Below, in pieces: positions 20,487 through 31,466 of a stretch of 64,000 nt of DNA; positions within the stretch are counted from its first letter, which is position 1, and the number at the start of each line of letters is the position of its first letter. The stretch comes from an uncultured Desulfobacteraceae bacterium (lineage in GTDB: Bacteria > Desulfobacterota > Desulfobacteria > Desulfobacterales > UBA5852), in the NCBI GenBank assembly GCA_913060875.1, contig CAJXSL010000009.1, positions 1 through 64,000 on the forward strand, given 5' to 3'. The notes beneath the pieces were generated by a model. It searched no databases and was not told the origin of the DNA. It was given only the letters and a program-made list of their open reading frames with translations. A program made the position numbers and the translations under genes.

Positions 20487-20761
20487 CGTCTACTTCTTCC
20501 AAGCCCATATTCTTACAATCCCACCACCCTATTCTGTAAGTAAATACTTAAAATTGAGAAATCTTTTTCGTATTTTTCAGAATAACTAAGGCATAAACAG
20601 CTGTCCCGCTCGGCTGAATCATACATATCATATTGTAAAAATTGACTATTTAATTTTCTAAAAGGAGCTGGCACAACTTTTGGATTAGGGGTGGACTGTT
20701 TCGGCATAAGCACTTCGAACGATCACGTATTTCTTTCATGCCATTAAAGGAGATTCAACGT

Positions 20762-21520
20762 ATGCGAAAACTCATGGTCGGCACCGTATTCTTATTCCTA
20801 ATCTTATGCATCTGCTCTACCGCTAACGCAACCAACATCACGGTTTCCCATTGGACAAGCGAAGCCGATGCAATTGCCGCTATGAATTCATGGCTGGGGG
20901 GGTCCACCTATACCATGCTTGAAGATTTTGAAAGCCAGGCGGCGTTTTTGCCGGGTAGTGGCGGTGTTAGTAGCTATGCCTTCGGGCCTGCCACGTTTGA
21001 GGCTGTCGATGGTGCCGGGCAGGGTGCCATGAGTTTTGACAAATCCGCTCCGAAAATCGGTGTAATGGAGCGTGATAGTGTCGGCGCCGACAATTATGGA
21101 AGGACTCTGAACTGGGCGGAAGAGAACTCCTTCTTTGGCAATCAATACCTCGATTCCGGCGATGTAATGGACGTCATCCTGAATCATAACCTCATAAGCC
21201 TTAAACTGGACACGCTGTTCTTTTTCATGTTCGATGTGGCCGATTGCAATGGCACCATGAGTGTTTTCGAGGACGATGGGTCCGCATCCCTCTTCAACAT
21301 TGCCGACAGACCGAACGGGACCATTACTTTCGTGGGTTTGCAGGCCGATATGGGAACCTACCTTGACAAAATCAGCTGGTCTATGGACAAGGCCACGGAC
21401 GGTTATGGACTTGATAATTTCGGCACAGTGGCCCCTGTGCCCGAACCGTCCACCATGGTCCTCATGGGAATAGGCCTGATGGGCCTGGCGGGTCTGGGAC
21501 GAAAAAAATTTCGCCAATAG
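20762..21520 (+). CDS. PEP-CTERM sorting-domain protein of unknown function
   Basis: AAAGGAG supports the ATG at 20762; an ATG 24 bp upstream is less likely. The 252-residue product has a Sec signal (first 23 residues, ending ANA). Its body is probably a beta-sandwich with few charged clusters. It ends with a PEP-CTERM signal: VPEPST, a hydrophobic helix and GRKKF. Many such proteins are extracellular-matrix components whose anchor is cut by exosortase. It sits just outside attR, and the PEP-CTERM tail resembles that of the GDSL protein inside the island. A terminator follows. Confidence 0.85.
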   Translation: MRKLMVGTVFLFLILCICSTANATNITVSHWTSEADAIAAMNSWLGGSTYTMLEDFESQAAFLPGSGGVSSYAFGPATFEAVDGAGQGAMSFDKSAPKIGVMERDSVGADNYGRTLNWAEENSFFGNQYLDSGDVMDVILNHNLISLKLDTLFFFMFDVADCNGTMSVFEDDGSASLFNIADRPNGTITFVGLQADMGTYLDKISWSMDKATDGYGLDNFGTVAPVPEPSTMVLMGIGLMGLAGLGRKKFRQ

Positions 21521-22771: not shown

Positions 22772-22919
22772 TAGTGTCCGTCCATAAATGGTAGATTTTG
22801 GTTCCTGGCAAGGCCCGAGCGCGTTTTCTCAACCGGAGGAATAGTCCACTATTGCGAGGATTGAAAACGAGCGCGAACGCCGCCAGGGGCCGAAAGATGC
22901 CATTTAGGGATGGGCACTA
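22772..22919. repeat. MITE-like palindromic element, copy 2
   Basis: About 148 bp. The ends are inverted (TAGTGTCCGTCCATAAATGG and CCATTTAGGGATGGGCACTA). The inside has TTTTGGTTCCTGGCAAGGCC and GAACGCCGCCAGGGG, shared with the element at 45104-45246. Its right end overlaps the stop codon of the minus-strand gene at 22917. Confidence 0.65.
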
Positions 22920-23669
22920 TTTATGCCTTCCGGCGGTACGCACCCGATCGGAAAAAAGCTTGATGCAGGTGGGGCAGTAGCGGTGATGCTCCTTGAGATC
23001 CGGGTGGGGCGTGACCCGGTCGTGAATGTGCGCCAAAAACTTCGGGGTGGCAAACAGGGCCCCGCAGCCTTCGCAGCGCTCCAGGGGGTGGCGGCCGATC
23101 ACCTCGTCGCGGATGGAAATGGTGCGCACATTGTCCTTGTCCTCCATCCGGATGGCATCGGTGGGGCAGATATTGACACAGGTGCCGCAGCCGATGCAGC
23201 GGCCTTCGATGGGATCCACGAAGTGGCCGCCGTCGCGCTTGTGCATGACCAGGGCCCCCGGTCCCACAATTTCATCGCAAACCCGGACGCAGAGCCGGCA
23301 GCGGATACAACCGTCCGGGCGGGGGCCCAGATCGACATTCCAGCGGGCGGCCAATTCGCGCACCGCCTCCGACTGGGGGGCCAGGGTCAGCAGCCGTTTG
23401 AACGCCTGGCGGCGGGCTTTCTCGACAAGTTCTCCGGAGGTGCGCACCTCCAGGCCGTCCCGGACCCGCAGAACACAGGACAGCATGGTGGTCATGCGAC
23501 CGCTTTTCCCCTCCACCTCCACGGCGCACAGGCGGCAGGCCCCCGAGGGTTTGAGGGCCGGGTGAAAGCAAAGGGCCGGCAGGTCGATGGCGTTGGCCCG
23601 GGCCACTTCCAATACGGTCTGGCCCTCTTCGGCGTCATACGGCTGGCCGTCGATGGTAATGTTGATCAC
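22917..23669 (-). CDS. NuoG/HoxU-like 2Fe-2S and 4Fe-4S electron-transfer subunit
   Basis: The 250-residue protein starts with a plant-type 2Fe-2S domain (Cys in LPALCFHP, CRLC, and a later SCV, residues about 34-64). A NuoG-type linker with CIRCRLCVRVC follows near 121. A second 4Fe-4S motif CIGCGTCVNICPTDA is near 157. The C-terminus has a four-Cys module (CEGCG...CPTC) whose layout resembles the end of the FAD protein in the same operon. It should pass electrons within a soluble complex, like the small subunit of NAD-linked hydrogenases or formate dehydrogenases. It is the last gene of the operon, and its stop lies in a MITE-like repeat. Confidence 0.88.
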   Translation of the reverse strand: MINITIDGQPYDAEEGQTVLEVARANAIDLPALCFHPALKPSGACRLCAVEVEGKSGRMTTMLSCVLRVRDGLEVRTSGELVEKARRQAFKRLLTLAPQSEAVRELAARWNVDLGPRPDGCIRCRLCVRVCDEIVGPGALVMHKRDGGHFVDPIEGRCIGCGTCVNICPTDAIRMEDKDNVRTISIRDEVIGRHPLERCEGCGALFATPKFLAHIHDRVTPHPDLKEHHRYCPTCIKLFSDRVRTAGRHK

Positions 23670-23711
23670 AGCAATCGCTCCTTCAGGCGCCAGGGCGCAT
23701 GGTGTGGACGA

Positions 23712-23921
23712 TCAGTCCAGCGGGCGCAGACAATCCTGGGGCAGGCGATGGGTTCCCTTGCCTTCCAGGCTGATTTCCACCAGGGCATCCGGGTCGTTGA
23801 TGGCCGTGTCCGGGTCGGTCACGATGCCATGCAGGCCGACGAATTCATCCATGTACGGTTCCCAGCTCTCGTCTTCGGATTTGCGGTAAAGCTCCACTTT
23901 CTGGCCTCTACGGAAAACCAT
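23712..23921 (-). CDS. Small SH3-like protein (69 aa), oxidoreductase operon
   Basis: AAAGGAGA precedes the ATG at 23921; the frame is open further upstream but overlaps the preceding gene there. The product begins MVFRRGQKVELYR. Its strand-rich pattern, with G-x-V turns and a RLPQDCLRPL ending, looks like a small beta-barrel (SH3/KOW-like). There are no metal-cluster cysteines. It sits between the FAD and 2Fe-2S genes, so an assembly or structural role in the complex is the likely guess. Confidence 0.65.
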   Translation of the reverse strand: MVFRRGQKVELYRKSEDESWEPYMDEFVGLHGIVTDPDTAINDPDALVEISLEGKGTHRLPQDCLRPLD

Positions 23922-23950
23922 CGAACCGTCTCCTTTCTGCGGCCGAATCC

Positions 23951-26101
23951 CTATTGCTCCGGTTGCATGGTCCGGGCAGCCGCGGTACGGCCGCAGGCAT
24001 CGCAAACCGGACGGTTATCCACCAGGGGCCCGATGCCCCGGGTACGCTTGCGTACATATTCGAGATAGCGGAAAGGCTCCATCTGTTTTCCGCACAGGGC
24101 ACATTCGGTCAGGGCTTCGTGATTGAGCACCGTGCCGCACAGGGACAGCACGCGCTCGCCGTCGCAGTCCTCGATCCGCATGGCCCCGGTGGGGCAGTTG
24201 GCCGCACAGGCGCCGCACAGGATGCAGCGTTCGGCCGTCATCCGGAAATCCGTTTCCACGGGATGATCGAAATCAAAATACCCCATCTCGAGGGCGTTGA
24301 CGCCCATCTTGTCACGACAGATCTCGACGCATTTGCCGCAGCGCAGGCAGATGTCGCAGCGCAGGCAGCGTCCGGCCTCATCCCGGACATCCGTCTCGGC
24401 ATAGCCCAGTTCCACCTGCTGGAAGGTGGTCCGGCGCCGGTCGATATTGAGCAGCGGCATCTCCGGCCGCCGGGCCGTCATTTTCTGGTTGGCGGTCAAG
24501 CGCTTGCAATCGATGCGGCCGCGCCGCACCGGTACGGGCGGCAATTTGGGCTGCGGGATGCCGTGGAAATAGCGATCGATGCCTTCGGCGGCACGCTTGC
24601 CGGCGCCGATGGCCTCGATCACCGTGGCCGGTCCGGTGACCGCATCGCCCACGGCAAAAACGCCCGGAAGCGAGGTTTCCATGCTGACCATATTGGTATG
24701 AATGGTGCTGCGCCGCGTCCAGTCGAGGCCGGGCAGGTCCTTGACCCCCGCGGTATCCACCTGCTGGCCGATGGCGGGAATCAGGGCATCCGCCTCCATG
24801 ACGAATTCGCTGCCCTTGACCGGCACCGGACGCATCCGGTCGCTGCCCTCCTGGGCCACCAACTCAGCCCGCAAACAGCGCAGCCCCTCGAAATGCCCAT
24901 CCTGTCCGACGATGGCTTCCGGAATGGTGAGAAAGCGCATTTCCACACCCTCTTCCTCGGCCTGCTCCACTTCTTCCTCGTCGGCCGGCATTTCGTGCCG
25001 GGTGCGCCGATAGGCCAGAACCACGGATTCCGCACCCAGCCGCAGGCTGGTGCGGGCGGCATCGATAGCCACGTTGCCGCCGCCGATCACGACCACCTTT
25101 TTGCCGGGGACGGCCCGATTGCCCAAAGCCACTTCCCGCAGGAAACCCACGGCATCCAGGACCTGCGGGAAATCATTCTCGCCGGGGATGCCAAGCGTGT
25201 AGGCTTTATGGGCGCCAATGGCCAGCAGAAAAGCATCAAAGCCCTCCTGGCGCAGGTCGTCCAGGGTCACGTCGCTTCCCAGCCGGGTATTGAAGGCGAA
25301 TTCCACCCCCAAATCCTGCAGCATGGCCACTTCCCGGTCGATCACCTCACGGGGCAAACGATAGCGGGGAATGCCCAGCAGGATCATGCCGCCGGCATTG
25401 GGCTGGGCCTCGATTACGCGCACGCGATAGCCTTTGAGGGCCAGGTAGTAGGCCGCACTCATTCCGCCGGGGCCGGCCCCTATGATGCAGACCGACTGCT
25501 CTTTGTCCGGGGCTTTGGGCGGATTTTTGTACTGCCCCCAGGAAAGCGCCCGCTCGGCGGCAAAGGCTTTCAGGAACTTGATCGAAACCGGCGTGTCGAT
25601 GCGGCCCCGGACACACATGAACTCGCAGGGCCGCGTGCAGACCAGGCCGCACACCCAGGGGAAGGGGTTGTCCTGGCGAATTACTTCGATAGCCTCGGCA
25701 TCCCGGCCTTCACCGATCAGGGAGACATAGGTCGGCACGTCAATTCCGGCCGGACAGGTCATCTGGCAGGGCGCCGGCGCCAGGCGCACGCATTCCCCGG
25801 TGGCGCAATTATGGGTGTCGATATGGCTCTGGAAGATTTCCGCCGCCTCTTCCAGACAGTTCAGGATATGGCCGCCGGTCTTCTCACCGGCATCGGCGGC
25901 ATCCTCGCGACGCATTTCTTCCGCCAATTGCCGGATGGCCGGCACATGCTCCCGGCCGGCCCGCCCCCAGGCCACATCGTTGAGCAGGGCCAGGATTTCC
26001 TCACTGCGCCGGTAGTTTTTGGCATCGTGCAGTTGACCGGACGCCAGCGTTTGCTCCAGTTTCTGGATCAACTCTGCTACCGGACAGGTCTTTTCGGTCA
26101 T
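23951..26101 (-). CDS. FAD/NAD(P)-dependent oxidoreductase with ferredoxin domains (GltD-like)
   Basis: The 716-residue protein probably joins a pyridine nucleotide to the FeS chain. In order: a helical N-terminus; a Cys-rich domain like the N-terminus of GltD (CQMTCPAGIDVPTY near 111, CTRPCEFMC); an FAD Rossmann motif GAGPGGMSAAYY near 210; and an NAD(P) motif VIGGGNVAIDAAR near 343. A second FAD contact is GVFAVGDAVTGP near 490. Then come two 4Fe-4S motifs (CLRCDICLRCGKCVEICRD, CILCGACAANC) and a last four-Cys module (CALCG...CDACG). It starts 31 bp after the ferredoxin-subunit gene. Members of this class act as NADPH-linked partners of hydrogenases and dehydrogenases; the direction here is unknown. 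Confidence 0.9.
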   Translation of the reverse strand: MTEKTCPVAELIQKLEQTLASGQLHDAKNYRRSEEILALLNDVAWGRAGREHVPAIRQLAEEMRREDAADAGEKTGGHILNCLEEAAEIFQSHIDTHNCATGECVRLAPAPCQMTCPAGIDVPTYVSLIGEGRDAEAIEVIRQDNPFPWVCGLVCTRPCEFMCVRGRIDTPVSIKFLKAFAAERALSWGQYKNPPKAPDKEQSVCIIGAGPGGMSAAYYLALKGYRVRVIEAQPNAGGMILLGIPRYRLPREVIDREVAMLQDLGVEFAFNTRLGSDVTLDDLRQEGFDAFLLAIGAHKAYTLGIPGENDFPQVLDAVGFLREVALGNRAVPGKKVVVIGGGNVAIDAARTSLRLGAESVVLAYRRTRHEMPADEEEVEQAEEEGVEMRFLTIPEAIVGQDGHFEGLRCLRAELVAQEGSDRMRPVPVKGSEFVMEADALIPAIGQQVDTAGVKDLPGLDWTRRSTIHTNMVSMETSLPGVFAVGDAVTGPATVIEAIGAGKRAAEGIDRYFHGIPQPKLPPVPVRRGRIDCKRLTANQKMTARRPEMPLLNIDRRRTTFQQVELGYAETDVRDEAGRCLRCDICLRCGKCVEICRDKMGVNALEMGYFDFDHPVETDFRMTAERCILCGACAANCPTGAMRIEDCDGERVLSLCGTVLNHEALTECALCGKQMEPFRYLEYVRKRTRGIGPLVDNRPVCDACGRTAAARTMQPEQ

Positions 26102-26132
26102 GGCAACCTCTTTATCCTATCCCGGACAGGGG

Positions 26133-26651
26133 TCAAGTGGTGCTGATATCCAGGGCGGCCACGGCTTCGGCATGCCGTTTTTTGCGCACATTGACGATCT
26201 CATCCACGTTCGACCCGAATTCCAGGCAGTGGGTCGTGCACACCGTCACACAGGCGGGCTTGAGCCCCTGATCGACCCGCTCCATGCAGTAATCGCACTT
26301 CACGGCCTTGCCGGTTTCCGGATTCCACTGGGGCGCCCCCCAGGGGCAGGCCGTAATGCAGGCCTTGCAGCCGACACACAGGCTGTGGTCGATAAAGACG
26401 ATACCGTCCTTGGCCCGCTTCTGCATGGCGCCGGTGGGGCAGGCGGCCACGCACCAGGGATCTTCGCAGTGAAAGCAGGGCATGAAAACATAGGTGGCCC
26501 GGGGCAATCCGCCGACCATTTTGGGACCCACCGGGATGATCTGGCTGATTTTGGGTCCCAGGGGCAGATCCTTGTTGCTCTTGCATTGAATCGTGCAGGT
26601 ATTGCACCCAATGCATTTCTTGGTATCCTGAAAGAGGTAGTATTTGCTCAT
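26133..26651 (-). CDS. Four-cluster ferredoxin subunit (DmsB/HycB family)
   Basis: The 172-residue protein has four Cys groups: CIGCNTCTIQC (near 13), CFHCEDPWCVAACP, CVGCKACITACPWG, and CDYCMERVDQGLKPACVTVC. This is the pattern of the electron-transfer subunits of DMSO-reductase-type enzymes. No Tat signal and no membrane tail are present, so it should stay in the cytoplasm. It lies 33 bp after the catalytic-subunit gene. Confidence 0.93.
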   Translation of the reverse strand: MSKYYLFQDTKKCIGCNTCTIQCKSNKDLPLGPKISQIIPVGPKMVGGLPRATYVFMPCFHCEDPWCVAACPTGAMQKRAKDGIVFIDHSLCVGCKACITACPWGAPQWNPETGKAVKCDYCMERVDQGLKPACVTVCTTHCLEFGSNVDEIVNVRKKRHAEAVAALDISTT

Positions 26652-26684
26652 GAATTTCCTCCGATCATGTTCATCCGCGGTAGC

Positions 26685-28769
26685 TTAGGCCGCCTTCACG
26701 GTGACAAAGGTATCGTGCAGCGCCGGACTTCCGCCGACACGGTCGGTAATGTTTTCCTGCAGCACGCTGTCGGATACGCCCTTGTTGTAGCAGCGCGCGG
26801 CCAATTTGGCTTCGTGCCCGAAGCCGTGCACCATGAAAACCGCTTCCGGATGAATCAGATCGGTCACGTAGGCCTTGAGAACCCCGGAGCCGGCCTTGGA
26901 GGAAATCTCCACCAAATCATCGGTGCTGATACCAAGCTTCGCGGCTTTGGCCGAATTGATCCACAGAACATTTTCCGGAAAAAGCTCGTTCAGATAGGGC
27001 ACGTTCTGGGTGGACACATGGGTGTGCAGCGCCACCCGGCCCACCACCAACCGAAACACATCGTCCTTGTCCGCCGGGGCCGGCTCGTAAGCCGGGAAAG
27101 ACTCGAAACCGGCGTCTTCCAGCAGCGAGGAACGAAACTCGATTTTACCGGACGGCGTTTTCAGCTTCAGGTCCTCCAGGCGGTCCCAGAAAATCTGGCT
27201 TTTGCCATAGGCCACAAACCCCTTGGCCTCGAAATCCGCCATGGTAAACCCGGTGCCTTCCAGCTGCCATTGGACCAGTTCATCCATGGTTTCATAGGGG
27301 AAGTATGTCCCAATCCCCAACCGTTCGCACAGCTGCTTCATGATGACGGCATACTCCCGGGTGTCGTAGCGGGGCCCGACAACCTGGCGGCGCAGGAACA
27401 TCTGGGGCTTGAGGCCGTTGGCCTGCTGCACGCAGTCGGTGCGCTCCAGGTAGGTGGACTCGGGCAGGATGACATCCGCATACCAGGCCAAATCGCTGTA
27501 ATTGACGTCCACGGCCACCACCAGATCCAGCTTTTCCAATGCTTTTTTCATCTGGTTGGTATCGGGTATGGACTTGAGCGGATCGAACCGGTTGATGATC
27601 AGGGCTTTGATGGGATAGGGATCCTCGCTCAGGATGGCCGGGGCCAGCATCTGTCCGACACCGTGGGCGCTGTCCGGCAGCGGGAATTCCGGCGTTCCCA
27701 CCTTGTCGAAGCGGGGCTTGTCCGGCTTGGGCAAATCCTGCTCCACCAGCTTGCGGGCCGCTTTGCCGCCGGCCGCGCCCGGACCCTTTTTGAAGAAAAG
27801 CCCTCCGGGCGTCTCCACACTGCCCATCAGGCAGTTCAGGATCAGGATGGAGCGGCGCAGGTAAATCTCGTTGGCGTGGTGGGCCCCCCGGTAGCCGTAA
27901 TGAAAAATGACCGACGGTTTGTCCTTGCTCACCTCGCGGGCCAGGGCCCGGATCTCCTCCGCGGCAATGCCGGTTTCCGTTTCCGCCCACTCCGGTGTGT
28001 AGGAACGCACAAAGTCCTGCAGCTCGGCCAGCCCCTCCACCCAGCGTTCCACGAAGGCGCCGTCGTAGAGGCGCTCTTCAAGTATGACGTTGATCAACGC
28101 ATAATTGAGGGCCAGGTCGGTTCCGGGCCGAATCATCCAGTACCGATGCGCCTTGGTGGCGGTGACCGTGACACGCGGATCGATGTAGGTTACCTTGGCC
28201 CCCTTGTCGATCGCTTGCATCAGGCTGTTGACTTCTTTTACCGACACGGCCTCGAACATATTGCGCCCGTAAAGGATAACCTGGCGTGCATTCTTGTAGT
28301 CCATGCCCATCTGGCCGTCGGTATAGCCGAACAGGCTGCGGCAGGCCGTATTGACCGACCCCTTGCACAGGGCATCGTGGGTAAAATGGTTGGGCGACCC
28401 GATGGCCTTCAGAAACGTCTTGCTGACGTGGGTGGCCAGGTTGGCACGTTCCCCCAGCACCACACTGTGGCCGCCATGGGTATCGATGATGCCCTTGAGT
28501 TTGTCCGCCACATAATCAAGCGCCTCGTCCCACGAGGCCTTGCGCCATTTGCCCTCGCCCCGGGCCCCTTCACGGATCATCGGACTCTGAACCCTTTGGG
28601 CGTCGTACTGCATCGAAATGCCGGCGGCCCCTTTGGGACACAGGCTGCCTTCCATACCGGCAACATGCGGGTTGCCTTCAATCCACTTCACCTGCCCGTC
28701 TTTGACCTCCACCCGAATCGGGCAGCGTACCGAGCACATGAAACAGAGGCTGTAAATTGATTGCGTCAT
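26685..28769 (-). CDS. Molybdopterin oxidoreductase, DMSO reductase family
   Basis: This catalytic subunit has a Mo/W-bis-pterin site. GGAGGAGAAG supports the ATG at 28769, giving 694 residues. The N-terminal 4Fe-4S motif is CFMCSVRC...CPKG (residues about 9-44). The region HDALCKGSVNTACRS near 129 supplies the probable Cys ligand to the metal. It resembles polysulfide/thiosulfate reductase catalytic chains (PsrA/PhsA) more than formate dehydrogenase, which would show a Sec/Cys-His pair. Unlike those exported enzymes it has no Tat signal, and no membrane subunit gene is present. Substrate unknown: sulfur compounds, formate or an organic acid are all possible. Confidence 0.9.
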   Translation of the reverse strand: MTQSIYSLCFMCSVRCPIRVEVKDGQVKWIEGNPHVAGMEGSLCPKGAAGISMQYDAQRVQSPMIREGARGEGKWRKASWDEALDYVADKLKGIIDTHGGHSVVLGERANLATHVSKTFLKAIGSPNHFTHDALCKGSVNTACRSLFGYTDGQMGMDYKNARQVILYGRNMFEAVSVKEVNSLMQAIDKGAKVTYIDPRVTVTATKAHRYWMIRPGTDLALNYALINVILEERLYDGAFVERWVEGLAELQDFVRSYTPEWAETETGIAAEEIRALAREVSKDKPSVIFHYGYRGAHHANEIYLRRSILILNCLMGSVETPGGLFFKKGPGAAGGKAARKLVEQDLPKPDKPRFDKVGTPEFPLPDSAHGVGQMLAPAILSEDPYPIKALIINRFDPLKSIPDTNQMKKALEKLDLVVAVDVNYSDLAWYADVILPESTYLERTDCVQQANGLKPQMFLRRQVVGPRYDTREYAVIMKQLCERLGIGTYFPYETMDELVQWQLEGTGFTMADFEAKGFVAYGKSQIFWDRLEDLKLKTPSGKIEFRSSLLEDAGFESFPAYEPAPADKDDVFRLVVGRVALHTHVSTQNVPYLNELFPENVLWINSAKAAKLGISTDDLVEISSKAGSGVLKAYVTDLIHPEAVFMVHGFGHEAKLAARCYNKGVSDSVLQENITDRVGGSPALHDTFVTVKAA

Positions 28770-29115
28770 GCTTCTCCTCCCCAAAAAAATGAAAAACGAT
28801 AAACGCGCTTGGCAAACATCGTTAGAAAAATCCCCTCCAGGGAAACTATAGACCTGATGTGCAAAAGATACAGCGGAGAGAGAAACGCAATTAATATGCC
28901 ATTTAGAATGGAACCAGGAAGAAAATGTGATTGAGATTCACCGCTGAAATAATATTGAATAATTCCATAGCATAAATCAAATAAAAAAATAGAACAGCGG
29001 TTTCGAGGGCAAGCGCGTCGAGGGGTGGTGACAGGGAAAAATCGCCATCATCAATTGGCAGTGCCAAAAAAATATGGCGTAATTACAATGATATATAGCT
29101 CATAACCTTATTCCG
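28770..29115. promoter_or_regulatory. Divergence-free intergenic region with palindrome TTGGCA-G-TGCCAA
   Basis: About 345 bp upstream of the Mo-oxidoreductase operon. It is AT-rich in the middle and probably holds the operon promoter. A perfect 6-1-6 palindrome (29055-29067) is a candidate operator. No ModE-type site and no clear sigma54 promoter were seen. Confidence 0.4.
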
Positions 29116-29853
29116 TCAGTCATGCCGATGGGGGACCTGCCCGTGGCGATGGGCATGCACATGCTCGTGGAAATGGACCTCCTCATCGAGAAGGATGCGC
29201 CCGTCTTCCATGGAATACGTCCTGTCGGCGGTTCGGGAAAGAAACCGGGCATTGTGGGAAATCAGCACATAGGCCAAATCCAGTTCGCCGATCACATGGG
29301 TCAGGGTGTGGCGCGTATGGTCGTCCAGGCCGGTGGTGGGTTCATCCAGCAGCAGCACCTCCGGCTCCATGGCCAGGATCGTGGCCAGCGAAACCAGCCG
29401 CTTTTCACCGCCCGAAAGACGAAAGGTGACCCGGTCTTCGAAACCGGAAAGTCCCAGGCGTGCGAGGGTCTTTTGGGCCACGGCGACGGCCTCCTCCCGA
29501 TCCTTGCCCAGGTTGAGCGGACCAAAGGCCACATCTTCCAAAACCGTCGGACTGAAAAGCTGGTCGTCGGCATCCTGAAACAAGAGACCGATGCGCCGGC
29601 GCGTGGCCGCGAAATCCGCTTCCGTGGCAACCGGCTGTCCGAACAGCGTGATCGTGCCCCGGGTCGGCTTCAAAAGTCCCATGATCACATGGAACAAGGT
29701 GGTCTTGCCGCTGCCATTGGGGGCCACCAGCCCCACCCGCTCGCCGGGGAAAAGGTCGAAATCCAGATTCTTGAGAATGGGCGCCCCCCCCGGATAGGCG
29801 AAGTGAATGCCACGCAGAGAGATGAGCGGTGCGGCCTGTGCTTCCGTTGTCAA
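29116..29853 (-). CDS. cbiO: ECF-type nickel/cobalt transporter ATPase CbiO/NikO
   Basis: This ATPase drives an energy-coupling-factor metal importer. The 245-residue product has Walker A APNGSGKTT near residue 44, a Q-loop LLFQDADDQLF, signature LSGGEKR near 146, Walker B VLLLDEP and the switch His in ISHNA. The last 18 residues are very His-rich (HFHEHVHAHRHG...HRH), a feature of nickel-handling proteins that may store or sense the ion. It starts 10 bp after the cbiK stop and is the end of the operon. Confidence 0.93.
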   Translation of the reverse strand: MTTEAQAAPLISLRGIHFAYPGGAPILKNLDFDLFPGERVGLVAPNGSGKTTLFHVIMGLLKPTRGTITLFGQPVATEADFAATRRRIGLLFQDADDQLFSPTVLEDVAFGPLNLGKDREEAVAVAQKTLARLGLSGFEDRVTFRLSGGEKRLVSLATILAMEPEVLLLDEPTTGLDDHTRHTLTHVIGELDLAYVLISHNARFLSRTADRTYSMEDGRILLDEEVHFHEHVHAHRHGQVPHRHD

Positions 29854-29863
29854 TTAATACCTC

Positions 29864-30658
29864 TCAGTCCAGTTTCAGGGGAGGGCCTGCCATGGCCGTC
29901 CTGATGTGACGGCCGAAGATAGCGATGGCCATCGAATGATCCCCCAACCCTTCACCTTCCGGGATAACGGTCAGCCCCTTCTGCTCCAGCTGGGCCTGCC
30001 AGGATGTCGGCCGGTCGCCGGCGATATCCTGCATGAAATGGGCCCCGGCCACCAGCATGAACGGCCGCAAGTGCACGCGGCGGCAGCCGGCCGCCGCAAG
30101 GCGGGATGCAACGGTGGCTGGCGTGGGGTCCCCTTTTACCTGGCCCAGTACAATCTTGGGGCCGAAACGGGCCGTTATCCTCTGGGCCAAAACCGCATAC
30201 GCCATCCAGGCGGGATGCTTTGTCCCATGCCCCACCAGCACCAGGGCATCCTCCTCTGCAGGGGGTCGCACCTCGGCCAGCCAATCCAGGACCGCATCGA
30301 AATCTTCAGGGGTCGTAAGCAGGGGCAGGCCAAGATGGATATCCAGCGGGCTCCGGGCCGCCTTCCAGGCCAGTTGGTGGAATTCGATCCCACCGATCAG
30401 ATGCAGGGACTGCGCCACCGCTTTCGGATAACCGGCCCGCAGCAATTGATCGAAAACCGCTTCCGGTGTTGCCGTCGACGTGCCGTCCTTAGCCTGCACC
30501 CGTTTGCGAATGGCGCGTGACGAAAAGGCCAGCTGAATCGGATGTTCCGGGAAAAGCCGCTGACATTCCGCTTCGATGCGGCGATAGACGGTGGCGGCCG
30601 TCGTGGCCGTACCGGATGCCACCAGAACGATCGGTATCGGCCGGGTATCCTCAGGCAT
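29864..30658 (-). CDS. cbiK: Sirohydrochlorin cobaltochelatase CbiK, cytoplasmic form
   Basis: CbiK inserts Co(II) into sirohydrochlorin in the anaerobic B12 path. The 264-residue protein starts without a signal peptide. It has the family segments LVASGTAT near 13, SLHLIGGIEFH near 86 (metal-binding His), LVGHGTKHPAW near 141 (catalytic His) and MLVAGAHFMQDI near 206. A second paralogue with a signal peptide is encoded at 38743-39624. Its place between cbiQ and cbiO suggests shared metal supply. Confidence 0.93.
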   Translation of the reverse strand: MPEDTRPIPIVLVASGTATTAATVYRRIEAECQRLFPEHPIQLAFSSRAIRKRVQAKDGTSTATPEAVFDQLLRAGYPKAVAQSLHLIGGIEFHQLAWKAARSPLDIHLGLPLLTTPEDFDAVLDWLAEVRPPAEEDALVLVGHGTKHPAWMAYAVLAQRITARFGPKIVLGQVKGDPTPATVASRLAAAGCRRVHLRPFMLVAGAHFMQDIAGDRPTSWQAQLEQKGLTVIPEGEGLGDHSMAIAIFGRHIRTAMAGPPLKLD

Positions 30659-30713
30659 ATGTTTCCCTCACGCGCATGCGATTTAACGCTGCGGCGTCGA
30701 TGGTTTCAGATCT

Positions 30714-31466
30714 TCAGTCCATCCACTCCAAGCCAACGAGGAGGATCATAGCAAAAGCCGCGGCAAGCGCAAACCATTGATTGGCCGGATGGGGCGGAAA
30801 GGTCGCCAGCGAGTGAAACCGCCCGTCGAACCCCCGGCACCGCATGGCCTGGTACACGCGATCGGCCCGGGTGGCCGCCCGTACAAAAAGCATGCCGATC
30901 AAATACGCATAGCTGCGATAGGTGTGGAGATTGGTCCGGGGGCGAAATCCCCTGATTTTCATGGCGGCCACCAACCGGTGGTATTCCTGTTCGATGACAA
31001 AGATATACCGATAACACATGAGCAAAAGGTAGACGAGTTTGGCCGGAACCCCCAGGCGGGCCAGGGACTGCCCCAGGGTATTGACGGGAATGGTGGCCAC
31101 CAGGGTGGTAAAAACCGCAATGATGGCCAGGGATTTCAGCGTAATCTGCGCCGACAGCCGAACGCCGGGCCAATAGATGGAGACAACCCCTATCTTGGCC
31201 GCGATAGCGCCTTCATAGGTCAGGGGCAGCAGGCACCACAGCAGCAGCAGGAACCACACTACCACCATCAGCCGTCGCCCGGTTTCCCGGAAATTCAGGC
31301 CGGGCACCAGCAACAGCACCAACGCGGCCAGACAAGCCGCCGACAGGGCCGTAAACGTCTGGAAAACCGCCACCGCACATGAAAAAAAGGCCGCGGCCAG
31401 GACGCGCAAGCGGGGATCGATACGATGCAGCAGGGAGTGCCCCTGGGCCATGGTTTCGGCAATCAT
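30714..31466 (-). CDS. cbiQ: ECF transporter transmembrane component CbiQ/NikQ
   Basis: This is the EcfT-type membrane scaffold of the Ni/Co importer. The 250-residue product has four to five hydrophobic helices. The cytoplasmic coupling motif is near residues 165-215, seen as AMKIRGFRPRT and AMRCRGFDGRF (two A-x-x-x-R-G boxes), which contact the CbiO ATPase. It starts 4 bp after the preceding gene. Confidence 0.93.
   Translation of the reverse strand: MIAETMAQGHSLLHRIDPRLRVLAAAFFSCAVAVFQTFTALSAACLAALVLLLVPGLNFRETGRRLMVVVWFLLLLWCLLPLTYEGAIAAKIGVVSIYWPGVRLSAQITLKSLAIIAVFTTLVATIPVNTLGQSLARLGVPAKLVYLLLMCYRYIFVIEQEYHRLVAAMKIRGFRPRTNLHTYRSYAYLIGMLFVRAATRADRVYQAMRCRGFDGRFHSLATFPPHPANQWFALAAAFAMILLVGLEWMD

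Follow-up and report, generated by a model that had tools for sequence, protein, structure and literature searches.

A candidate cytoplasmic NADPH-linked thiosulfate reductase, encoded by a five-gene operon of an uncultured Desulfobacteraceae bacterium, with relatives joined to other electron modules

What substrate, and what electron donor, would a soluble five-gene molybdenum oxidoreductase serve in a bacterium of the Desulfobacterota? The question is raised by an operon in a 64,000-nucleotide stretch of DNA (assembly GCA_913060875.1, contig CAJXSL010000009.1, positions 1 to 64,000), here called the window, from an uncultured Desulfobacteraceae bacterium. The operon consists of five co-directional minus-strand genes spanning positions 28769–22917, separated in gene order by gaps of 33, 31, 29 and 42 nucleotides (nt); their products are labelled, 5' to 3', CatA, FdxB, GltDC, the 69-aa protein and NuoG250. 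An original prediction, made from this sequence alone, had placed the five genes and their domains correctly. With a probability of about 0.5, we read the operon as encoding a member of the thiosulfate/polysulfide reductase family that works in the cytoplasm and reduces thiosulfate (or sulfane sulfur) with electrons from NADPH.

CatA has the Fe4S4, molybdopterin and dinucleotide-binding domains, with a [4Fe-4S] motif formed by C9, C12, C16 and C44. It scores 622 bits against the NCBIfam PhsA equivalog model, under the curated cut-off of 694 bits, and 270 bits against the formate dehydrogenase (Fdh) alpha model. The nearest PDB chain by profile is 2vpw_A (9.6e-139), and the same chain is the best fold match (TMq 0.90) of the AlphaFold model, which has a mean predicted local distance difference test (pLDDT) score of 91. 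CatA C135 aligns with Cys173 of 2vpw (PsrA), which we take to be the Mo ligand; the roles of the other active-site residues are likewise presumed. Profile, tree and fold thus bear out the predicted resemblance to PsrA/PhsA, and by its sequence CatA is a member of the PhsA/PsrA (thiosulfate/polysulfide reductase) family.

Relatives were collected by scanning named genomes with the CatA alignment (the best 80 of 175 relatives, hereafter the named loci), beside which 17 more clade A loci and 30 clade B loci were considered. A quick CatA tree of 73 rows, with the partial gene L171 excluded, carried long-branch warnings, and a careful tree of 53 rows was built by removing 20 of them (the references NapA, TtrA, DmsA, Ahy and FdhF, loci L209 and L210, and 13 members of the branch described next). 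In the 53-row tree, window CatA falls in a branch of 41 rows with support 100/100, all free of a twin-arginine translocation (Tat) signal. The sister row is E. coli SE11 PhsA (97/97), whose N-terminus carries a twin-arginine signal, and all nine Tat-bearing rows lie outside the branch. Two clades within it are supported: A, which is window-like (100/100), and B (99/95).

N-termini were inspected in a first set of 58 loci, in 77 of the 80 named loci and in the window. No Tat signal was seen in window CatA, where the sole in-frame upstream ATG, GTG or TTG is a TTG five codons 5' of the ATG. Of the 47 Tat-free loci in the 58-locus set, 8 have a loose RR pattern, as do 7/77 named loci, in none of them followed by a hydrophobic stretch as judged by eye, and a Tat-like start is present in all 11 of L199–L203 and L205–L210. 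Since the signal is absent across the branch, the enzyme is predicted to be cytoplasmic. A gene for an NrfD/PsrC-type membrane subunit was not seen by eye among the open reading frames (ORFs) at 20–32 kb in the window. The absence of both features, and a soluble, cytoplasmic, NAD(P)-linked enzyme, had been proposed originally and agree with what the sequence indicates.

The partner subunits provide a candidate route for electrons from NAD(P)H. FdxB is a DmsB/PsrB-like B subunit with four FeS clusters. GltDC has eight invariant Cys residues corresponding to two GltD-type [4Fe-4S] clusters, followed by a C-terminal dicluster ferredoxin and a Cys4 ribbon; its nearest matches are the GltD parts of 9bov_A, 9n5u_A and 8oh5_C, and also NfnL. 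The GGGN motif of GltDC is followed by YRR in 12/12 aligned sequences, which we take as a link to NADP. NuoG250 carries [2Fe-2S] and [4Fe-4S] clusters and a C-terminal Cys4 ribbon, and matches 9mqx_A (247 aa) over almost its full length (residues 2–237 of 250, E 2.6e-49). Further matching chains of 9mqx are the NuoF-like B and the FdxB-like E, and from its chain names and PMC13328260 this entry appears to be the bifurcating AmWOR1. The 69-aa protein has no Pfam or NCBIfam match, and its predicted strands place it in the SH3-like fold class; Foldseek returned nothing at E 0.001, with PetP, the variable chain of ferredoxin–thioredoxin reductase (FTR) and PsaE-type chains among the matches listed. 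Within the electron module it probably has a structural or docking role. The window complex thus resembles an NADPH input of StnC type whose parts are unfused and which is joined to a Mo subunit with intact cofactor motifs. In StnC (8OH5), the GltD part passes NADPH electrons through NuoG-type clusters (PMC10482914).

The operon is conserved well beyond the window. All five genes occur in the same order and on the same strand in 35/80 named loci, and in 32 of the 48 that have at least 5.5 kb of downstream sequence. The original prediction had seen no known exact match; the gene-order search it proposed instead recovers the set in dozens of Desulfobacterota loci, and such genes have been annotated as thiosulfate reductase PhsAB. 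The named relatives fit the Desulfobacterota (formerly Deltaproteobacteria), a few being labelled just 'Proteobacteria' or 'bacterium', and these relatives include Desulfosarcina alkanivorans, Desulfosarcina widdelii, Desulfatibacillum alkenivorans, Desulfacinum hydrothermale, Desulfobacula and Desulfotignum. A CBS-domain gene accompanies 22 of the 35 five-gene loci and is missing from the window operon, and gene orders differ in L046, L077 and L092. By tblastn, FdxB adjoins CatA in 79/80 named loci, 16/17 further clade A loci and 21/30 clade B loci; within 9 kb of CatA in the named loci, where many contigs are short, GltDC was found in 69, the 69-aa protein in 55 and NuoG250 in 45. Mean column identity among the relatives is 78% for CatA, 72% for GltDC, 67% for NuoG250 and 68% for FdxB. 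In a phylum sample of 297 genomes that includes the window genome, the 69-aa protein is encoded in 14, the window genome counted, and its gene adjoins gltDC in 13/13 of the others, one of which (L025) has a second copy at a contig edge with no neighbour visible. The high column identity and the linkage of the 69-aa gene to gltDC argue that the operon is not a chance arrangement.

Across the branch, CatA–FdxB is a head with varying electron modules, which is the chief new point of this analysis. The first module, that of the window, comprises GltDC, the 69-aa protein and NuoG250. The second is NuoE–NuoF–NuoG250, with NuoF (at least 300 bits) in 9/80 and NuoE in 11/80 named loci; Desulfobacula L069 and Desulfosarcina L071 are examples of the NuoEF type. 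This NuoF has a C-terminal extension with two [4Fe-4S] clusters and a weak N-terminal thioredoxin-like match, under the cut-off; its best solved matches are 9n5u_B, 9bov_B, 7q4v_B and 7t2r_B, and also 9mqx_B, chains that we take, partly from general knowledge, to be subunits of bifurcating-type enzymes. Relatives with NuoEF beside CatA might bifurcate electrons. The third module is a NuoF–GltD fusion, seen in 10/17 further clade A loci and 2/30 clade B loci. It forms a single open frame in 9 of the 10 clade A cases (L158, near a contig end, is shorter) and in both clade B cases, and Pfam recognizes 51K, SLBB and GltD-type domains in the fusion of L159.

The fourth module is a complex I operon: NuoD or NuoH is encoded near CatA in 10/30 clade B loci. 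In L176, a single strand carries catA-fdxB-nuoA-...-nuoD-nuoH-nuoI-nuoJ-...-nuoL, and Pfam verified A, D, H, I, J and L there, nuoB with nuoD in L187, and nuoH in L191. In L191 and L194, CatA lies beside the complex I operon on the opposite strand, with FdxB inside the operon. The queries used gave no NuoE or NuoF match beside these ten loci, and in 11/30 clade B rows no electron module was found within the search radius of 9 kb.

Related genes were also observed elsewhere in the window's own genome (G000). A second CatA paralog, belonging to clade B, lies at C3:141617-143686 (L169), next to genes for a 379-aa NuoG-like protein and a molybdopterin oxidoreductase with one in-frame TGA (possibly selenocysteine); neither FdxB nor an electron module was found there at the cut-offs used. 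A further NAD(P)-linked set, distinct from the window operon, lies at C5:110000-122000 (L212), where NuoE and a Bfu-like NuoF are followed by a 698-aa protein that has a GltD-like region and, by eye, begins like RnfB. In several genomes, clade B CatA has near it a conserved protein of some 550 aa with a start like MNIGSYTFDEYV, seen in L191 (13300-14997), L194 (4773-6419) and L169 (10760-12391).

For the substrate, the family and the genomic company of CatA are the main guides. Branch membership in genomes was assigned at a CatA profile score of at least 650 bits, a cut chosen once the N-termini were known. On this basis the Tat-free branch is present in 75 of the 297 phylum genomes, in 30 family codes, and dsrA (TIGR02064) in 144. 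Nearly all branch genomes have dsrA (73/75, compared with 71/222 of the remainder; Fisher p 4e-26, uncorrected for kinship), and the two without it, G094 and G238, are 80% and 89% complete. A TauE/SafE (PF01925) permease is encoded near CatA in 49/80 named loci (31/40 of those with long flanks) and in 15/17 further clade A loci, in clade B in just 8/30. TauE is a proposed sulfite exporter with an Archaeoglobus homolog that is a putative sulfite importer, and TauE-type proteins are frequent yet uncharacterised in sulfate reducers (PMC3949148, PMC5840216). The substrate, which the original prediction left unknown, can thus be narrowed to a candidate class of sulfur compounds by the indirect guides of family, dsrA co-occurrence and TauE neighbours; family and dsrA linkage, with the permeases as a hint, suggest that it is probably thiosulfate.

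The NADPH preference, electron path, formation of a complex, substrate and direction all go beyond gene content, and we infer the following scheme. NADPH would be oxidised at the FAD of GltDC, and the electrons would pass through the C-terminal clusters of GltDC to NuoG250, then to the four clusters of FdxB and the Mo site of CatA. There, CatA would cleave a sulfur–sulfur bond, most likely that of thiosulfate, and the resulting sulfite and sulfide would supply the Dsr pathway. Thiosulfate reduction has a potential of about -400 mV, too low for NADPH under standard conditions, and this may be why sister enzymes sit on modules that add driving force (NuoEF/Bfu or complex I); for the window enzyme, the driving force would have to come from substrate/product ratios. 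Among proteins that bear the PhsA or PhsAB name, expression of the one from O. marinus (PhsA, E8L03_06385) in E. coli increased H2S production from thiosulfate (PMC10989961), and for the PhsAB of D. alaskensis (PhsA, Dde_1076) the reported thiosulfate phenotype is weak (PMC4215793).

Several observations weigh against a thiosulfate reductase. The published phenotypes are weak, and biochemistry of the Tat-free CatA branch was not found in the literature covered. In D. dissulfuricans, PhsA-1 makes up only 0.12% of protein during thiosulfate disproportionation and the authors of the study doubt that it plays a major role; the thiosulfate disproportionators T. dismutans and T. marina have no PhsA ortholog, ten disproportionating species have neither a Phs- nor a Ttr-type protein, and eight species with a PhsA ortholog are unable to disproportionate (PMC9751629). 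The CatA pocket is unlike that of PsrA, with Arg108 in place of His145 of 2vpw; Arg occupies this position in all clade A rows, preceded by Glu, and in 28/30 clade B rows (the exceptions being L196 and L204). The co-occurrence with dsrA partly tracks phylogeny. The TauE neighbour is missing at the window locus, and none of the five TauE matches of the window genome lies on the window contig; across that genome the P7-type permease is matched only weakly, at 36.9 and 24 bits, and a P7-type TauE ortholog was accordingly rejected. Finally, genome G161 carries FdxB-GltDC-69aa-NuoG250 (L026, C1:2324000-2338000) with no adjacent CatA; the genome's sole CatA-profile match belongs to clade B and lies at a distance of about 2 Mb. 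A clade B CatA directly follows NuoG250 in G134 (L172), and the two layouts together suggest partner swapping.

The variation in modules invites a wider, more tentative reading, in which CatA–FdxB is a swappable cytoplasmic sulfur head. Joined to complex I without NuoEFG, it would turn that complex into a reversible oxidoreductase between menaquinone and thiosulfate (or sulfane sulfur), with the proton-motive force driving the uphill reduction; joined to NuoEF, it would form a 'Phs-Bfu' that confurcates NADH and ferredoxin; and the window enzyme would be the NADPH version. If this is true, CatA–FdxB would be the electron partner that the truncated complex I of some sulfate reducers and disproportionators has seemed to lack. 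A single catalytic head with four kinds of electron module, nearly confined among the sampled genomes to those bearing dsrA, makes a concrete, testable candidate.

Rather less likely, in our estimate, the same machine acts physiologically on polysulfide or another cytoplasmic sulfane-sulfur carrier, such as a protein persulfide or trisulfide, rather than on thiosulfate. The closest solved structure, 2vpw, is a polysulfide reductase, and the polysulfide potential suits NAD(P)H better. Thermotoga has an NAD(P)H polysulfide reductase, of a different protein family. This cytoplasmic enzyme is reported to have thiosulfate reductase activity too (PMC9431562), and according to another study the substrate of Phs/Psr proteins cannot be read from sequence alone (PMC13047784). 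However, the TauE-family permeases point to an oxyanion or sulfonate, and the PhsA model gives the top score for CatA.

Complex I and Bfu modules are usually fed by low-potential donors, and in the ten clade B loci described above CatA lies in or next to a complex I operon that has no NuoEFG. These modules would also fit an enzyme working in the oxidative direction, with sulfite and sulfide (or another sulfur substrate) oxidised and the electrons delivered to NADP+, to menaquinone by way of complex I or, at the NuoEF loci, to NAD+ and ferredoxin. A Nuo complex lacking the N-module is raised during sulfur disproportionation, in a study that calls its electron donor unknown (PMC12142623). We nevertheless consider oxidation unlikely, as the family members of reported activity are reductases and the NADPH version would offer a sulfate reducer no obvious energy gain.

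A formate dehydrogenase or CO2 reductase, or an enzyme with some other non-sulfur substrate, would suit the NuoG/BfuA-like and GltD-like partners, which recall parts of NAD-linked Fdh, hydrogenase and Stn enzymes. The hallmark of formate dehydrogenases is an active-site Cys/Sec-His pair; CatA has Cys135-Lys136, with Lys where both aligned Fdh references have His. The pair is Cys-Lys in clade A rows and Cys with another residue in clade B, where L204, within the Tat-free branch, has no aligned Cys. In both trees CatA stays apart from the Fdh references, and by sequence and fold as well it lies outside the characterised formate dehydrogenases among which, according to the original prediction, it might have fallen. 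Tree placement and active-site pair speak against a formate dehydrogenase identity for CatA, which we reject. A cytoplasmic Mo enzyme of T. dismutans has been annotated as Fdh (PMC4911364), but with tree, profile and fold all placing CatA with PhsA/PsrA, and with the dsrA linkage of its branch, a non-sulfur substrate is improbable. Least probable of all is bifurcation by the window complex at the GltDC FAD in the manner of NfnAB, an electron splitting that the original prediction entertained: GltDC has the GltD/NfnL fold and clusters, but the operon has no NfnA-like partner and no NuoEF (BfuBC) core, the Bfu-like NuoF of this genome sits in another gene set (C5, L212), and StnC, with the same GltD domain, is non-bifurcating (PMC10482914).

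The positions of the operon genes and of a promoter-like site are collected in Table 1. A scan for sigma-54 sites covered the window and 64 of the 80 named loci, hand-picked for usable upstream sequence, with 50 mononucleotide shuffles as control. A -24/-12-type site with at least 8/10 matches lies 5' of catA in 49 of the 65 regions, window included, compared with a mean of 2.3 and a maximum of 7 in the shuffles. A sigma-54 response regulator is encoded near CatA in 32/80 named loci. Small membrane proteins (EMC3b, EMC3a and P11, names that serve as labels only, none with a Pfam match) are kept near the TauE-family permeases in L073, L083, L046 and other loci. Elsewhere in the window, ORFs at 29116-31466, upstream of the operon, are ABC-transporter ATPase, cobalt-chelatase-like and transporter-permease-like and by eye resemble a cobalt uptake (Cbi) set, and a protein at 20738-21520 has a secreted look and a C-terminal VPEP-type (PEP-CTERM) sorting signal, again by eye.

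Table 1. Operon genes and promoter-like site, numbered from the first nucleotide of the window
Feature	Positions	Strand	Description
CatA	26685..28769	-	694 aa; catalytic molybdo(tungsto)-bis(pyranopterin guanine dinucleotide) (bisPGD) subunit; PhsA/PsrA family; no Tat signal
FdxB	26133..26651	-	172 aa; four-[4Fe-4S] electron-transfer subunit; PsrB (2vpw_B)- and 9mqx_E-like
GltDC	23951..26101	-	716 aa; NAD(P)H/FAD GltD-like protein
69-aa protein	23712..23921	-	predicted SH3-like small beta barrel
NuoG250	22917..23669	-	250 aa; NuoG/BfuA-like
sigma-54-type promoter TGGCATATTAATTGCG	28886..28901	-	consensus 9/10; catA start 132 nt downstream

How, then, does this operon stand to systems already described? 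Its nearest characterised counterparts are PhsABC and PsrABC (E. coli SE11 PhsA; 2vpw), to which CatA and the four-cluster B subunit are homologous over their full length. The window set differs from them in the lack of a Tat signal on CatA and in having an NAD(P)H-type module in place of an NrfD-type membrane subunit, which was not seen; from PsrA, CatA further differs in the exchange of His145 for Arg. Also similar, by annotation and gene order, are the 'PhsAB' genes of Desulfobacterota (D. dissulfuricans, D. phosphitoxidans), which share with CatA–FdxB a PhsA–PhsB pair with PhsC missing. In D. dissulfuricans, PhsA-1 (30490), PhsB-1 (30500), Nuo (30510) and NuoB (30520) match the CatA-FdxB-Nuo order; the Nuo proteins GF1_30510/30520 were detected solely in thiosulfate-disproportionating cells, in which PhsA-1 (GF1_30490) is slightly raised (PMC9751629); a further PhsA of this species carries the tag GF1_10120. 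D. phosphitoxidans Dpo_3c03810/20 are annotated PhsAB (PMC4046663), and related Desulfobulbaceae have Phs/PsrAB only (PMC13047784). The MOLY cluster of sulfur disproportionators is likely extracellular (PMC12998232), hence unlike the CatA set.

The electron modules have their own counterparts. Among type 2 Bfu enzymes (Wor-Bfu/AmWOR1, Bam), NuoG250 resembles the BfuA-type 9mqx_A in size and length, and FdxB resembles 9mqx_E; their catalytic subunit is AOR-like, whereas CatA is PhsA-like, and the window has no BfuBC. No type for thiosulfate, polysulfide or molybdopterin is mentioned in the main text of the Bfu survey of 2022. With the Stn/Nfn-Bfu transhydrogenases (StnABC 8oh5, 9bov), the operon shares a GltD-type NADPH domain and NuoG-type clusters. 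StnC, however, is one chain with an inactive FdhF-like domain (PMC10482914), whereas in the window operon the subunits are separate and the cofactor motifs of the Mo subunit are retained; the GltD–NuoG fusion with StnAB, the hallmark of Stn, is not seen in the window operon.

In the accessible main texts of open journals, neither the five-gene set nor the CatA–FdxB–complex I arrangement is described, and no characterised enzyme of this five-subunit composition was met. The accessible 'PhsAB' literature likewise does not describe the cytoplasmic branch, GltDC, the 69-aa protein, NuoG250 or the wiring to complex I. Already in print are the annotation of such genes as 'PhsAB' and the observation that their membrane subunit is missing; the electron modules are undescribed in the literature covered. 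The window operon is thus a variant of the Phs/Psr family, not a categorically new system, and the surprising part is its modular wiring.

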